Origin: Microbacterium sp. SORGH_AS_0862
Lineage (GTDB): Bacteria; Actinomycetota; Actinomycetes; Actinomycetales; Microbacteriaceae
Length of the DNA stretch: 64,000 nucleotides
Assembly (NCBI RefSeq): GCF_030818795.1
Contig: NZ_JAUTAY010000001.1
Span: 992,001 to 1,056,000, forward strand
Direction of reading: 5' to 3'
Made by a program: the position numbers and the translations under genes. The notes below the pieces were generated by a model. That model ran no database searches, was not told the origin of the DNA, and worked only from the letters and a program-made list of their open reading frames with translations. This document shows, piece by piece, positions 317-32,227 of the stretch. Positions within the stretch are counted from its first letter, which is position 1; every line of letters starts with the position of its first letter.

Positions 317-450
317 GTGTCCCACTTATTCACGAAACGCGTCAGGCCAGCGTGCACAACTGAGACACCGATTCGAGCGCCGGGCGCCACGGCACTGCGT
401 GTCCCACTTATGCACGCCGACGAAAGCCGCAGCGTGCACGACTGAGACAC
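317..450. repeat. Two 52-bp palindromic repeat units, 82-bp period
   Basis: Units occupy 317-368 and 399-450. Each has an 18-base left arm beginning GTGTCCCACTTAT, a loop of about 16 bases and an 18-base right arm ending GAGACAC that is largely the reverse complement of the left. They are separated by 30 bases. The same 52-base unit occurs three more times at 11727-11944. Both sites lie between the 3' ends of convergent genes. The rest of the 153-529 gap shows no convincing gene. Confidence 0.8.
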
Positions 451-529: not shown

Positions 530-2290
530 TCAGGCGACGGGCAAGGGCACCCGTGCCTCGAGCACGACATCACGGCCTCGCTGAAACAGCTGCGCGCCGC
601 CCAGATTGGCGATGCCCCGGCCCGCGGTCAGGGGCAGTGCTGAGCCGAGGCGTCCCGGCGATGACACCTCCACACGCAGCTCCGGGGCGGCATCCGGGTC
701 GCCGTGGGTCACCTCGAGCGTCGCCTGCCTCGCGCCCGAGTGCTTGACCGCGTTGAGGAAGCCCTCGCTCGCGATGTCGACGACACGGCGCGTCACATCC
801 TCGCGGCCGAGTGCGATCCGCGACTCCTCGTCGATGTCGCTCGAGATCTCCAGCACATGGGACCACGTCTCGATCATCTGGGCGAGGGCGTTCGAGGGCG
901 CGGTCGCGGCCGCGGCCCGTGTCGGCGCTGTGCCCTCGATCTCCGCGAGGGCCAGCGTGATCGTCGCCGCGAAGGCCTCCAGCTCCTCGGCCGTGGCCGC
1001 GCGCTCGTCCACCGTCGCCGCGAACAGCACGCACCTCCCCTGGACGCGACCGTGCAGCTGCTCGGCCGCGCTGCGCAGTTCGAGACGAGCGCGCGTCGTG
1101 CGCGTGGCGACCGCATCCGTCTGCGCGGCCAGAGCGCGCGACAGGCGACGCATCTGCACGATCGCACTGTGGATCGCATCGGAGGAGACACCGACGATGG
1201 CCGCGAGGAGGGGGAAGGCGAGGATCGGGACGAGCGCCGTCGGCAGGGTCTGCGGTGCCAGGAGGATCGCGGCGGAAGCGAAGAGCACCCCGGTCGCGAA
1301 CCAGGCGAACAGGATGGCGCCGCCTCGCGCAGTGGCCGAGCGACGGCGCGACGAGCGACGGGCGACCGCGTCGGCCACGAAGCCGCAGGCGAAGACGAGC
1401 ACGACGGCGATGAGGGCGAGGGCCGTCGACACCGTGGTCAGCGTGTACGGAAGGCTGCCCACCACGTAGGCGATGCTGACGACCACCGGGCTCGGCGGGC
1501 GCAGCCGCGCCAGCAGCGGGCGTCGGGGCGCGGCGGGCACGTCCACGGGACCGGTTCCTGCGGGAATCTCGGACAGCGGCAGCACCGCTGCGTCCTCGAG
1601 GTCGTGGCTGACCGCGCGGACCGACTGCGAGAACGCACTGACCTCGTCGAATCCGGGGTCGGCCGCCACCAGCTGCGTGAGTTCGGTGCGGAGCTTCGCG
1701 ACCTCCCCGTGCAGCAGGAGGCGGCTGCGGCGCGCGTAGGCGTCGGCGCGGCGGTCGGCCTCGCTCAGGTCGGACAGCGCGACCCGCAGGCGCGCGCTCG
1801 CGTCGCGGGTGGTGTGGTAGGCCACCGTCGCCGTGGCGACGAGGGACAGCACGATGAGCCAGATGACCACGTTCGTCGTCACGCGCTCGACCCAGGAGCC
1901 CGTGCTGGGCTCGTGCAGCAGCACGAAGCCGGCGGCGTCGTTGAGCAGGGGACGCGCCGCGCCGACGCCGACCACCGTGACGAGCACGAGAAGGGCTCGC
2001 CGGCGACGGCGCCGTATGCGGCGTTCGGCCCACGCCACCGGCAGCACGAGCACCACCAGCACGGCCCAGACGAGAACCGAGATGCCGATGGCGGGCAGGT
2101 ACTCGACCGTCGAGTTCACCGACCGGTAGGCGCCGAGCACCGTCACGGCGATCAGGAGGGAGACGGCAGCGCTCCATCCGCTGAAGAAACGGCCGCTGGT
2201 CAGAGTCCCCCACCAGATACGCGCCACGCGTCGCGCACTCCCGACGGCACCGCCGCGACGGGCCTCGGCGTATGCGCGGGCAGGCGTCAT
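530..2290 (-). CDS. Membrane sensor histidine kinase-like protein (NarL/DesK type)
   Basis: A 586-residue protein. The N-terminal part has several hydrophobic segments (about residues 35-55, 65-90, 95-115 and 135-160), then a coiled, Arg-rich stretch and a second membrane block (about residues 265-365). The C-terminal third carries a likely phospho-acceptor region (QLHGRVQGRC, as in HisKA_3 kinases) and a GHKL ATPase with N-box EGFLNAVKHSGA and G-box GRGIANLGG. It is therefore probably a DesK/NarX-type sensor kinase. No response regulator is adjacent inside the window, and the ligand cannot be predicted. The start is ATG at 2290. Confidence 0.75.
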   Translation of the reverse strand: MTPARAYAEARRGGAVGSARRVARIWWGTLTSGRFFSGWSAAVSLLIAVTVLGAYRSVNSTVEYLPAIGISVLVWAVLVVLVLPVAWAERRIRRRRRRALLVLVTVVGVGAARPLLNDAAGFVLLHEPSTGSWVERVTTNVVIWLIVLSLVATATVAYHTTRDASARLRVALSDLSEADRRADAYARRSRLLLHGEVAKLRTELTQLVAADPGFDEVSAFSQSVRAVSHDLEDAAVLPLSEIPAGTGPVDVPAAPRRPLLARLRPPSPVVVSIAYVVGSLPYTLTTVSTALALIAVVLVFACGFVADAVARRSSRRRSATARGGAILFAWFATGVLFASAAILLAPQTLPTALVPILAFPLLAAIVGVSSDAIHSAIVQMRRLSRALAAQTDAVATRTTRARLELRSAAEQLHGRVQGRCVLFAATVDERAATAEELEAFAATITLALAEIEGTAPTRAAAATAPSNALAQMIETWSHVLEISSDIDEESRIALGREDVTRRVVDIASEGFLNAVKHSGARQATLEVTHGDPDAAPELRVEVSSPGRLGSALPLTAGRGIANLGGAQLFQRGRDVVLEARVPLPVA

Positions 2291-4814: not shown

Positions 4815-4858
4815 CCTTCATCGAGTGAGCACTCGATCGGATGCTCGCTCGATGAAGG
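4815..4858. promoter_or_regulatory. 17-bp-arm inverted repeat, putative operator between cbs and metQ
   Basis: The arms are 4815-4831 (CCTTCATCGAGTGAGCA) and 4842-4858, reverse complementary except for one position, with a 10-base loop. It lies between the divergent cbs-metB and metQNI operons. Overlapping shorter palindromes of the form GAGTGA-CACTC occur at 4804-4816 and 4823-4834, and the GAGTGATC element of the neighbouring inverted repeat is related. The best guess is the binding site of a sulfur regulator that acts on both operons. Confidence 0.6.
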
Positions 4859-10307: not shown

Positions 10308-11651
10308 ATGCCCGAGCCCAAGAAGCTCATCCTCAACCTGTTCGAGATGAACACGGTCAGCCACATCACGCACGGACTCTGGCGTCTGCCCGGCAACAAC
10401 CGGCACCGTCACGGCGAGATCGCCTACTGGCAGGAGCTCGCGCAGCTCGCCGAGGAGGGCGGGTTCGACGCGATCTTCCTGGCCGACGTCGTGGGCGCCT
10501 ACGACGTGTTCCGCGACGGGCCCGAAACGGCCGTGCGCGAGGGACTGCAGATCCCCTCGCACGATCCCCTGCTCGTCGTGCCGCTCATGGCCGCGGTGAC
10601 CCGCCGGCTGGGCTTCGGGGTGACCTTCTCGACGAGCTACGAACCGCCGTTCACCTTCGCCCGGCGCATGTCCACCCTCGACGCCCTGACGCGGGGGCGC
10701 GTGGGATGGAACATCGTCACGTCCTACCTGCCCAACGCCGCGCGCAACTTCGGCCTGGACGAGCAGATCCCGCACGACGAGCGGTACCGCATCGCCGACG
10801 AGTTCCTCTCGGTCGTCTACGCCCTGTGGGAGCGTTCGTGGGACGAGGGCGCCGTCGTCTTCGACGCAGAGGGCGCTCTCGTGACCGATCCGGCGAAGGT
10901 GCACTACATCGACCACGCCGGAGAGCACTTTCGCGTCGCGGGGCCGCACCTCGTCGAGCCGACGCCGCAGCGCACCCCGGTGCTGTTCCAGGCCACGGGT
11001 TCTCCCGCCGGGATCGCCCTCGCCGGCCGGCACGCCGAGGTGGTCTTCACCGGCGGAAAGAGCGCCGACGACTTTCGTCGCAACAGGTCCCGGATGCGAG
11101 AGGCCGCGGCCGCCGCGGGCCGTTCCCCTGACGATCTTCGCTTCCTCGTGCAGGCCGGCATCGTCGTGGGGCGGACCGAGGCGGAAGCGGCGCGGAAGTG
11201 GGACACCTACCGACAGTTCACGAGTCTCGACGGCATCCTCGCGCACGCCGGCGTGCCCCTGGACCTGACGGCCTTCGACGGGTCGCTGACCGTCCGGGAG
11301 GCGGCGGCGCTGGCGGATGCGGACGTCGACGGACTAGGTCTCGCACCGGAGCGGACGGTCGCCGACACCCTCGAGGGGTTCCGACGCAGCCGCGAGGACC
11401 GGTACTTCGTGGTGGGCACCCCCGGAGTCGTGGCCGACGAGATCGAACGGTGGCTCGACGAGGACGGCATCGACGGGATCAACCTGCGGCAGTACCACTC
11501 GTTCGACACGCTTCGCGACGTCGCAGAGCTCGTCGTCCCGGAGCTCCGCCGGCGCGGCCGACTCCGCGACGAGGAAGAGGCCAGCACCCTGCGCGAGCGT
11601 CTCTTCGGCGCCGGCCCCTACCTCCCCGACACCCACCCCGCCCGCCGCTGA
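10308..11651 (+). CDS. NtaA/SnaA/DszA-family FMN-dependent monooxygenase
   Basis: A 447-residue flavin-dependent luciferase-like monooxygenase. The N-terminal PKKLILNLFEMNTVSHI, the GRVGWNIVTS motif and LFQATGSPAGIALA are typical of the NtaA/SnaA/DszA subfamily, which cleaves C-S or C-N bonds using FMNH2 and O2. With the two DszC-like proteins it recalls the seuABC genes for sulfonate-ester use in corynebacteria. I infer a role in releasing sulfite or a simple thiol from an imported organosulfur compound. GAGAGA precedes the ATG. Confidence 0.85.
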   Translation: MPEPKKLILNLFEMNTVSHITHGLWRLPGNNRHRHGEIAYWQELAQLAEEGGFDAIFLADVVGAYDVFRDGPETAVREGLQIPSHDPLLVVPLMAAVTRRLGFGVTFSTSYEPPFTFARRMSTLDALTRGRVGWNIVTSYLPNAARNFGLDEQIPHDERYRIADEFLSVVYALWERSWDEGAVVFDAEGALVTDPAKVHYIDHAGEHFRVAGPHLVEPTPQRTPVLFQATGSPAGIALAGRHAEVVFTGGKSADDFRRNRSRMREAAAAAGRSPDDLRFLVQAGIVVGRTEAEAARKWDTYRQFTSLDGILAHAGVPLDLTAFDGSLTVREAAALADADVDGLGLAPERTVADTLEGFRRSREDRYFVVGTPGVVADEIERWLDEDGIDGINLRQYHSFDTLRDVAELVVPELRRRGRLRDEEEASTLRERLFGAGPYLPDTHPARR

Positions 11652-11726
11652 ACCACGACGCCCGGCTCCCGCCGGGGCGCCCCTCCCCTGCGGGAGCCGA
11701 AGCCTGCGCGCGAACCGGGGCATGCG

Positions 11727-11944
11727 TGTCTCAACCGTGCACGCGAAAGCGCCCACCCACGTGCACAAGCGAGACACGCGCACATCTGCCCGACGAGCCC
11801 AGACCTCCATGTCTCAACCGTTCACGGGAAAGCGCCCCTCCGCGTGCACAAGCGAGACACGCGCACATCTGCCCGACGAGCCCAGACCTCCATGTCTCAA
11901 CCGTTCACGGGAAAGCGCCCCTCCGCGTGCACAAGTGAGACACG
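11727..11944. repeat. Three 52-bp palindromic repeat units, 83-bp period
   Basis: Units occupy 11727-11778, 11810-11861 and 11893-11944. Each is an 18-base arm (GTGTCTCAACCGTGCACG or a close variant), a loop of about 16 bases and an 18-base arm ending GAGACAC. The two 31-base spacers are identical. The last two units differ at only one position. The unit is the same family as at 317-450 in this window, and again lies between convergent genes. The remaining parts of the 11652-12039 gap hold no recognisable gene. Confidence 0.85.
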
Positions 11945-12039: not shown

Positions 12040-12903
12040 TCAGCGGGCGAAGACGTCGCCCCACGGCGTGGGACCGACGGCGATCGGCCGCCCAGGAGTG
12101 CGCGACCAGCGGCTCCAGCCACCGGGGAACACCCGCGCGTCGATGCCCGCCGCCGCGAGCGCGAGCGCGCTGTGGGCAGAAGCGATCCCCGAGCCGCATG
12201 TCAGGACGAGATCGGCGGATGCGTCTACACCCGCATCCGCGAGCGTCCGGTGCACCTCCGCGGCCGGGCGCAGTCGCCCGTCGGCCTGCATGTGGGCGAG
12301 GGTGGGCACGTTGATCGCGCCGGGGATGTGGCCGGCCGCGGGATCGGCGGTGGGAGCGACACCGCGGTAGTGCTGCGGCGCACGCGCGTCGATCAGGGCG
12401 CCGTACTGCGGTGCACCTGCGGCCGCCTCGATCGAAGCGATCCCCGGGTCGGCGTCGGCGAGCACGATGTTCCCGGGCTCCGGCCTCACATCCCCGCCCT
12501 CCAACAGGCCACCGGCTCCGATCCAGGCGCGGAGTCCCCCGTCCAGCACCCGTACGTCGACGCCCCGGCGGCGCAGCAGCCACCAGGCGCGAGCCGCCGC
12601 CACGCCGTCGTTGTCGTCGTAGGCCACGACGAGATCGCCCGCGTCCAGGCCCCACGCGCGCGCCGCATGCTCGAGGTCGGCGAGCGCGGGGAGCGGATGC
12701 CGGCCCTCCTCCGGGTGTCCCGGGCGCGAGAGCTCGCGCTCGAGATCGACGTAGACGGCGCCCGGCAGGTGTCCCGCGAGATAGGCGGGGCGTCCCTCCG
12801 GCAGATCGAGCCGCCAGCGCACGTCGAGCAGCCGCACCGGGCGCCGAGCATCGGCGAGTGCGCGGCGCAGCTCGTGGGTGTCGATGACGGGTGGCGACGT
12901 CAT
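12040..12903 (-). CDS. sseA: Two-domain rhodanese-type sulfurtransferase
   Basis: A 287-residue protein with two rhodanese domains. The N-terminal one is the inactive structural half (LLDVRWRLDLPEG, LPGAVYVDLERELS) and the C-terminal one bears the catalytic cysteine in LTCGSGIASAHS. The CGSG loop resembles 3-mercaptopyruvate sulfurtransferases more than thiosulfate rhodaneses. It would transfer sulfane sulfur to a thiol or to cyanide. The ATG at 12903 gives the conserved start; an upstream ATG at 12927 is possible. Confidence 0.85.
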   Translation of the reverse strand: MTSPPVIDTHELRRALADARRPVRLLDVRWRLDLPEGRPAYLAGHLPGAVYVDLERELSRPGHPEEGRHPLPALADLEHAARAWGLDAGDLVVAYDDNDGVAAARAWWLLRRRGVDVRVLDGGLRAWIGAGGLLEGGDVRPEPGNIVLADADPGIASIEAAAGAPQYGALIDARAPQHYRGVAPTADPAAGHIPGAINVPTLAHMQADGRLRPAAEVHRTLADAGVDASADLVLTCGSGIASAHSALALAAAGIDARVFPGGWSRWSRTPGRPIAVGPTPWGDVFAR

Positions 12904-13013
12904 ACCGCGAGCCTGCCCCGCCGGCATCCCGCGTTCACGGGGCGTCGCAACAGCGCGTCACCGGGCGTCATACCCCGTCACAGTCCCCCGCCCCCGTCTC
13001 GACGCGCGCACTG

Positions 13014-17207: not shown

Positions 17208-17316
17208 TCGCCTGCCCCAGATCGAGCCGTGGCTGTCGATCTGGGGCAGGCGAGCAACGCCACTACCCGCTCACCTGTCACAGTTCGACTCGCAGGCGTC
17301 GATCTGGGACAGGCGA
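17208..17316. repeat. Two tandem long hairpins between kdpC and kdpD
   Basis: Hairpin 1 spans 17208-17253: arms of TCGCCTGCCCCAGATCGA and its exact reverse complement (18 of 18) around a 10-base loop. Hairpin 2 spans 17271-17316 with the same geometry and 15 of 18 paired positions. The period is 63 bases. No U-run follows on either strand. They sit in the only sizeable gap of the kdp cluster, between the transporter and the sensor genes, and could act as a terminator, attenuator or mRNA end-stabiliser, or be a dispersed repeat. Confidence 0.8.
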
Positions 17317-32142: not shown

Positions 32143-32207
32143 GATTCGAAACAGTTGCTTCGAATTCGAACCACTGCTATCGTCATCGTATGCTTCGAAT
32201 CCGAAGC
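32143..32207. promoter_or_regulatory. Three TTCGAA operator sites between marR and the oxidoreductase gene
   Basis: ATTCGAAA (about 32144-32151), the perfect 12-bp palindrome TTCGAATTCGAA (32159-32170) and GCTTCGAATCCGAAGC (32192-32207, arms GCTTCG and CGAAGC) lie between the divergent genes. They are probably the binding sites of the MarR protein encoded at 31601-32119, controlling both directions. Confidence 0.65.
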
Positions 32208-32227
32208 ACTTACCTGAGGAGACAATC

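Follow-up and report, generated by a model that had tools for sequence, protein, structure and literature searches.

Palindromic units in the window

Two intergenic regions of the window (the whole 64-kb stretch of DNA analysed here) carry arrays of a 52-bp palindrome, which raises the question of what these units are and whether an enzyme is dedicated to them. The units of the first array were found exactly where the original prediction placed them (317–368 and 399–450). Three 52-mers were present at the second site as predicted, but the symmetric units there were shown to lie one base to the left of the predicted coordinates (Table 1). The start-to-start distances of 82, 83 and 83 bp were confirmed, as was the identity of both spacers in the second array, and independent gene calling also placed both arrays between convergent genes. 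The unique spacers of a CRISPR array are not seen at the second site, and the 52-bp units diverge from one another in sequence. The constant length held as well, since 38/38 units were 52 bases long in a scan of array loci that allowed total lengths of 48–62.

In each unit, a 16-base centre separates two 17-bp half-sites (TGTCYCR-N4-TKCASS) that face each other as an inverted pair, and in this genome a G stands before the pair in 36 of 40 cases and a C after it in 38 of 40. The outer arm may resemble parS. The window contained 14 half-site matches with up to two mismatches, compared to a mean of 4.6 and a maximum of 11 in 100 shuffles. Between the end of the first gene and the first array (about 155–300), a GC-rich degenerate short tandem sequence was seen, and two more intergenic palindromes of 44 and 53 bp are located at 4815–4858 and 32156–32208.

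Table 1. Palindromic units and their neighbouring genes, in window positions
Feature	Position	Strand	Remarks
Unit 1, first array	317..368	.	52 bp, GTGTCCCACTTATTCACG - 16 - CGTGCACAACTGAGACAC
Unit 2, first array	399..450	.	52 bp, 82 bp past unit 1
Spacer between first-array units	369..398	.	30 bases
Unit 1, second array	11726..11777	.	52 bp
Unit 2, second array	11809..11860	.	52 bp, 83 bp past unit 1
Unit 3, second array	11892..11943	.	52 bp, 83 bp past unit 2
Gene, 3′ end towards first array from right	530..2290	-	ORF as listed; caller start 2227
Gene, 3′ end towards second array from left	10308..11651	+	
Gene, 3′ end towards second array from right	12040..12927	-	ORF as listed; caller start 12903

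Distribution and spacing of the units in the genome

Further copies had been expected elsewhere in the genome, and the five window units were shown to belong to a family of 40 full units (up to three mismatches) in the single contig of 3,504,869 bp, where the reversed control pattern gave no match. The same contig contained 47 half-site matches, 45 of them inside the 40 units; the two without a unit are located at 1653889 and 3376876, the latter inside a coding sequence. The units form 14 arrays of 1–6 units each, none of which overlaps a called gene. Eight arrays lie between convergent and six between tandem genes, one of the latter being preceded by a forward tRNA gene, and none lies between divergent genes. 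Compared to the window gaps of at least 120 bp (5 convergent, 8 tandem, 8 divergent), the predicted enrichment in convergent gaps amounted to a tendency (8/14; p 0.075), and the lack of arrays in divergent gaps had p 0.012.

Direct repeats of 3–9 bases were found at the flanks of 0/40 units, and a 2-base CG/CG flank match, which is self-complementary, at 31 units. Neither transposition of a unit nor duplication of its target was observed. The suggested likeness to REP or MITE elements holds for a dispersed, extragenic, REP-like family but not for a MITE of the resident rve (PF00665) elements, as all four copies of these have other ends. These four insertion sequences (L042–L045) are near-identical to each other, and their ends are unrelated to the units. 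With a looser dyad pattern, a second TGTC subfamily of the TGTCCCACTT type, with another inner arm, was detected in the same genome.

The 69 start-to-start spacings collected fell at 72–73 (28), 77 (1), 82–84 (31) and 91–93 bp (6), with one each at 102, 114 and 124 bp, and thus step by helical turns (R 0.90 for the 48 values distinct per locus, reached in 0/20000 draws from a uniform null, units of one array being possible duplicates). In genomes beyond the clade, phasing persisted more weakly: a period of 10.4 bp, one of four tried, gave R 0.55 for 20 spacings (p 0.0015) and p 0.005 once these were collapsed to 16, likewise with a uniform null.

Occurrence in related genomes

Within the named genome collection, which may leave out the records of the window genome itself, the exact pattern was confined to 11 stretches of Microbacteriaceae bacterium PS02066, and 41 units with up to three mismatches were counted in that genome. 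Among 366 genomes of the genus, 13 gave matches (40 in the genome studied here, then 41, 41, 34, 29, 10, 9, 7, 5 and four singles), and the reversed control gave one match in each of three other genus genomes. A search with a covariance model, proposed in the original prediction, extended the family to 22/366 genus genomes at 1e-3 (model from 74 chosen units, scoring limited to 16 candidates in each genome) and revealed relatives with different inner arms. The looser dyad pattern matched 10/398 genomes of the family, with more than one match only in this genome (20) and G154 (7). Single matches to this pattern were no commoner than in the control (8 versus 11 genomes), and therefore nothing was drawn from their number. 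In close relatives, arrays were found at many orthologous places, and no exact match to the unit pattern was found in viral contigs.

Elsewhere in the family, single TGTCCC palindromes of 51 and 56 bp, symmetric by eye, were seen in other genera at L145 (genus g80) and at L150 and L151 (genus g29), and several short GGGGCGC/GCGCCCC inverted repeats surround a diverged unit at L139 in G085.

A putative nuclease gene between its own palindromes

A gene for a 304-aa protein at 679272–680186 was found to have arrays on either side, both here and in PS02066. A linked transposase had been thought possible; the linked DNA enzyme that was found is of a predicted restriction endonuclease (REase) type, and no Y1 transposase gene accompanies the units. 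A RAYT partner was rejected, PF01797 having 0 matches in this genome and being present in 5/14 control genomes.

A PF04480 search of seven genomes gave 32 matches, of which 30 loci were taken, and three of these had TGTC-type palindromes on both sides. The three bracketed proteins and a protein from G141 scored 229–265 bits against the 304-aa protein (109 for the next PF04480 protein), and an alignment of five bracketed proteins matched 312/366 genus genomes at 1e-40 or better. Bracketing was then counted at the best subfamily match in each of 30 genus genomes, a palindrome being accepted if it had the ends TGTC[CT]..[AG]GACA with one mismatch allowed and lay within 550 bp of the gene. Palindromes of about 50 bp were found on both sides at 27/30 loci, on one side at three (one of them at a contig end) and on neither side at none. 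Both sides were occupied at 22/25 loci when the five seed loci were excluded, and 22/30 remained when exact TGTC..GACA ends were required; when the symmetry criterion was tightened, one side went undetected at 8/30 loci. Among the controls, 0/27 other PF04480 loci had palindromes on both sides and 1/27 on one side, and the window genes had none (0/39).

The inner arms differ from species to species, and those to the left and right of the gene were shown to match at 10.4 of 12 positions within a locus compared to 7.0 between loci (27 loci; 0/20000 permutations as good). Arm similarity also tracked protein identity over the same 27 loci (Spearman rho 0.49, 0/5000), averaging 0.84 among pairs whose proteins were more than 70% identical (16 pairs) and 0.47 among those with less than 50% identity (59 pairs). 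Since the loci share ancestry, the permutations describe covariation along the phylogeny and not independent trials.

From position, arm match and covariation, we consider the units to be probably the dispersed sites of a dedicated chromosomal REase-domain protein of about 300 aa, whose gene lies between its own palindromes (probability roughly 60%). A symmetric assembly of this protein would bind double-stranded DNA and read both half-sites of the inverted pair, the near-constant outer end being one putative contact and the species-specific inner arm another. Units held on one face of the helix would allow neighbouring assemblies to touch. Binding, cutting and copying of the units by the partner protein could then spread them, in that copying or repair between sites, provoked by the nuclease, would also keep the palindromes alike. 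In function, such a system would be a counterpart of REP-RAYT built on an unrelated enzyme.

Home loci and change over time

Two recurrent homes of the gene were found, with orthologous genes and differing arms. Home 1, which adjoins an adenosine-deaminase-like gene (named by eye from sequence), was seen in G000, G079, G080, G094, G116, G119, G167, G032, G241, G298 and G303, the gene in G116 having been missed by the gene caller and placed by protein search. Home 2, between f9 and f10, was seen in G000, G079, G143, G298, G303 and G332. The gene is found in the same home in distantly related species of the genus. When home 1 was compared in 12 genomes, gene and palindromes were both present in five and both absent from the stretch examined in seven (G332, G347, G287, G010, G143, G018 and G001; G347 is cut by a contig end). 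G332, which lacks the home-1 gene, has 9 units compared to 34–41 in four relatives; this is a single loss, and a second relative of the protein persists at home 2. G347 has 29 units, yet only a distant protein match (8.8e-57) in a fragmented assembly.

The number of units at one place varies among close relatives, e.g., 6, 5, 2, and 1. At L032, L033, L099 and L096, about 19 kb separate two arrays in the genome studied here, and one array stands at the corresponding junction in PS02066. A deletion between arrays in PS02066 is the preferred explanation of this difference, since G303 and G332 have genes of the segment next to the array. At L095 (C71 of PS02066), an orfA/orfB pair that looks IS3-like by eye lies between two single units where the array is uninterrupted here. 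Integron-like cassettes between arrays were also considered; this reading was dropped because the PS02066 cargoes resemble, by eye, IS3 orfA/orfB and a lipoprotein.

The main rival to a dedicated nuclease is a role in host architecture. The protein would then be a DNA-binding factor domesticated by the host. The phased arrays, placed at the 3′ ends of genes, would serve as insulators, as barriers to transcription or as chromosome anchors, with selection keeping the sites and ordinary duplication and gene conversion spreading them. The lack of arrays between divergent genes (0/14), the helical phasing, the orthologous placement in close species and the shared gene home in distant ones are all in line with such a role. 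Nevertheless, it is weakened by the changing unit number at one place and by the joint absence of gene and palindromes at home 1 in 7/12 genomes, and we regard it as unlikely.

Duplex half-sites or hairpins

The arms had been thought to be kept by selection on structure. Among 139 distinct units of this clade, however, agreement between the arms at the nine variable positions was no better than that of shuffled arms, and at positions 8 and 13 the arms of these units differed more than expected; in a reduced set of 40 units with near-duplicates removed, the lowest p for arm agreement was 0.14. Because the two arms vary independently within the clade, the sequences suggest two half-sites read on duplex DNA and not a selected hairpin. 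Between genomes, the arms do covary (68 two-sided changes compared to 42.7 in shuffles; 74 chosen units). Arms of 22–23 bp are near-perfect or perfect in some species (G032 and G141). Both observations would be expected of a hairpin and equally of a symmetric duplex site, and the hairpin is thus weakened for this clade only.

A hairpin in RNA or single-stranded DNA, acting as a bidirectional terminator or a REP-like mRNA stabilizer with the nuclease neighbourhood being secondary, would fit the palindromic form throughout, the perfect arms of G032 and G141, the covariation between genomes and the placement at gene ends. We find it improbable as the explanation of the family, given the discordant arms of the clade and given that RNA is not expected to produce a fixed 16-base centre or helical phasing. 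An Rfam scan of eight loci outside the window also speaks against a known RNA, as only tRNA genes reached the gathering score and the matches on palindromes (L127 and L128 only) were far below it.

The partner protein

PF18741 and PF04480 matched the C-terminus of the protein, which corresponds to a Vsr-like REase domain (PF04480 above the cut-off in 2/4 proteins; PF18741 below the curated cut-off in 4/4, with E-values down to 1.4e-7). D226, E237, D239, H243, D253 and D255 were invariant in 27/27 proteins. D226, E237 and D239 are residues of a predicted active-site type, such D, E and D residues being catalytic. The N-terminal half gave weak matches to AbiEi profiles of PADLOC in 4/4 proteins (best 3.3e-9, others 0.005 to 5.5e-5). 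Two matches from profile searching against solved structures (E 0.32 and 0.85) were taken as chance, and a single-sequence structure model of the PS02066 protein, with a mean pLDDT of 33, was set aside. No relative of the protein was confirmed among 20 candidate stretches from viral contigs, and one partial match was found in phage records.

The REase domain combined with AbiEi-like N-terminal matches in 4/4 proteins would also suit a selfish homing or conflict module, whose nuclease would attack palindromes in the chromosome or in incoming DNA, or would act as a regulated, AbiEi-related, toxin-like protein. The palindromes themselves might then be operators or immunity marks of the nuclease. 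Either version is hard to reconcile with the distance of most units from the gene, with their position at the 3′ ends of genes rather than at promoters, and with the weakness of the AbiEi matches; both are considered improbable.

Comparison with known systems

The family resembles REP/REPIN-RAYT systems (REPtrons) in that its palindromes are dispersed and extragenic and that the gene for the enzyme adjoins repeats of its own. A further likeness is that one genome can hold several repeat groups, each next to a different enzyme, as described for REP/RAYT in the excerpted text of PMC3116915 and PMC3733652. The family studied here differs from REP-RAYT in that no Y1/HUH transposase is involved and the partner is of the REase type, and it was not assigned to REP-RAYT because neither the transposase type nor the GTAG foot (0/40 units) was found. 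The independent arms of this clade moreover suggest duplex half-sites, while the perfect arms of some species would also suit a folded strand; the TnpA-REP of E. coli acts on single-stranded REP (as excerpted from PMC8266576). Excerpts of PMC3733652 describe CGTC-tagged REPs as palindromes reported without a dedicated transposase, with an end tag that is sometimes TGTC, stems of 8–9 bp and loops of 4–5, from five other phyla; the palindromes described here differ from these in being about 50 bp long and in having a nuclease partner.

The C-terminal domain of the partner protein appears to be related to that of DUF559/REase_MTES_1575 proteins, its profile scores falling on both sides of the cut-offs. 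The description of the REase_MTES_1575 domain as a Vsr REase fold comes from Microbacterium testaceum, and no repeats are mentioned alongside it in the excerpted parts of that paper (PMC3710099). The likeness to AbiEi, the antitoxin of a type IV toxin-antitoxin system, consists of the N-terminal profile matches, and the REase domain here replaces the usual partner arrangement. A search of the open-licence literature, with subscription papers and preprints outside its scope, gave no report tying palindromes to DUF559/MTES_1575 proteins. That dispersed palindromes can have an enzyme of their own is already known, and it is the enzyme class that appears, within the literature covered, to be new for the role.

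Other pairs of putative nucleases and palindromes

A motif-free test detected cognate palindromes of unrelated sequence (40–69 bp) at 9/27 other PF04480 loci, corresponding to about six groups by eye because some loci are orthologues. The controls gave no such palindromes at the window genes (0/39) or at genes away from units (0/164). The test recovered only 20/30 loci of the main subfamily and thus under-counts. Four pairs of gene and palindromes were found in this genome, near 449k, 680k, 753k and 1903k, including the two TGTC families. Of five relatives in a plasmid collection, two Arthrobacter loci and a Tsukamurella locus were bracketed by their own palindromes; a third Arthrobacter locus had matching inverted repeats by eye only (motif-free score 0), and no bracketing palindromes were found at the Nonomuraea locus. 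The palindromes of these relatives occurred at 3, 10, 38 and 18 places in the records of the same organisms.

We tentatively propose, at slightly less than even odds, that DUF559-type REase-fold proteins of Actinobacteria may form a second class of enzymes dedicated to palindromes, one that arose independently in evolution as a non-homologous counterpart of the REPtron, and, as part of the same proposal, that each paralogue may own a palindrome family of about 40–69 bp, act on its helically phased duplex arrays, and both spread and homogenise it. Many bacterial palindromic repeat families have no known partner enzyme, and here position, sequence match and covariation link uncharacterised nucleases to palindromes of their own. 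If the proposal is true, it would provide a testable function for DUF559-type proteins, a natural series of proteins and sites for reading rules of DNA recognition, and an experimental route to the spread of palindromic repeats where RAYT transposases are absent.

Two intergenic 40-bp palindromes of the CCTGTCACAGATCGA..GTGACAGG type, 63 bp apart, were also observed in the window at 17211–17250 and 17274–17313. Palindromes of this type bracket another of the genome's PF04480 genes (L183), where the copies are 63 bp apart as well (567/630 and 1757/1820), and judged by its sequence this pair is a second nuclease-type palindrome family within the window.
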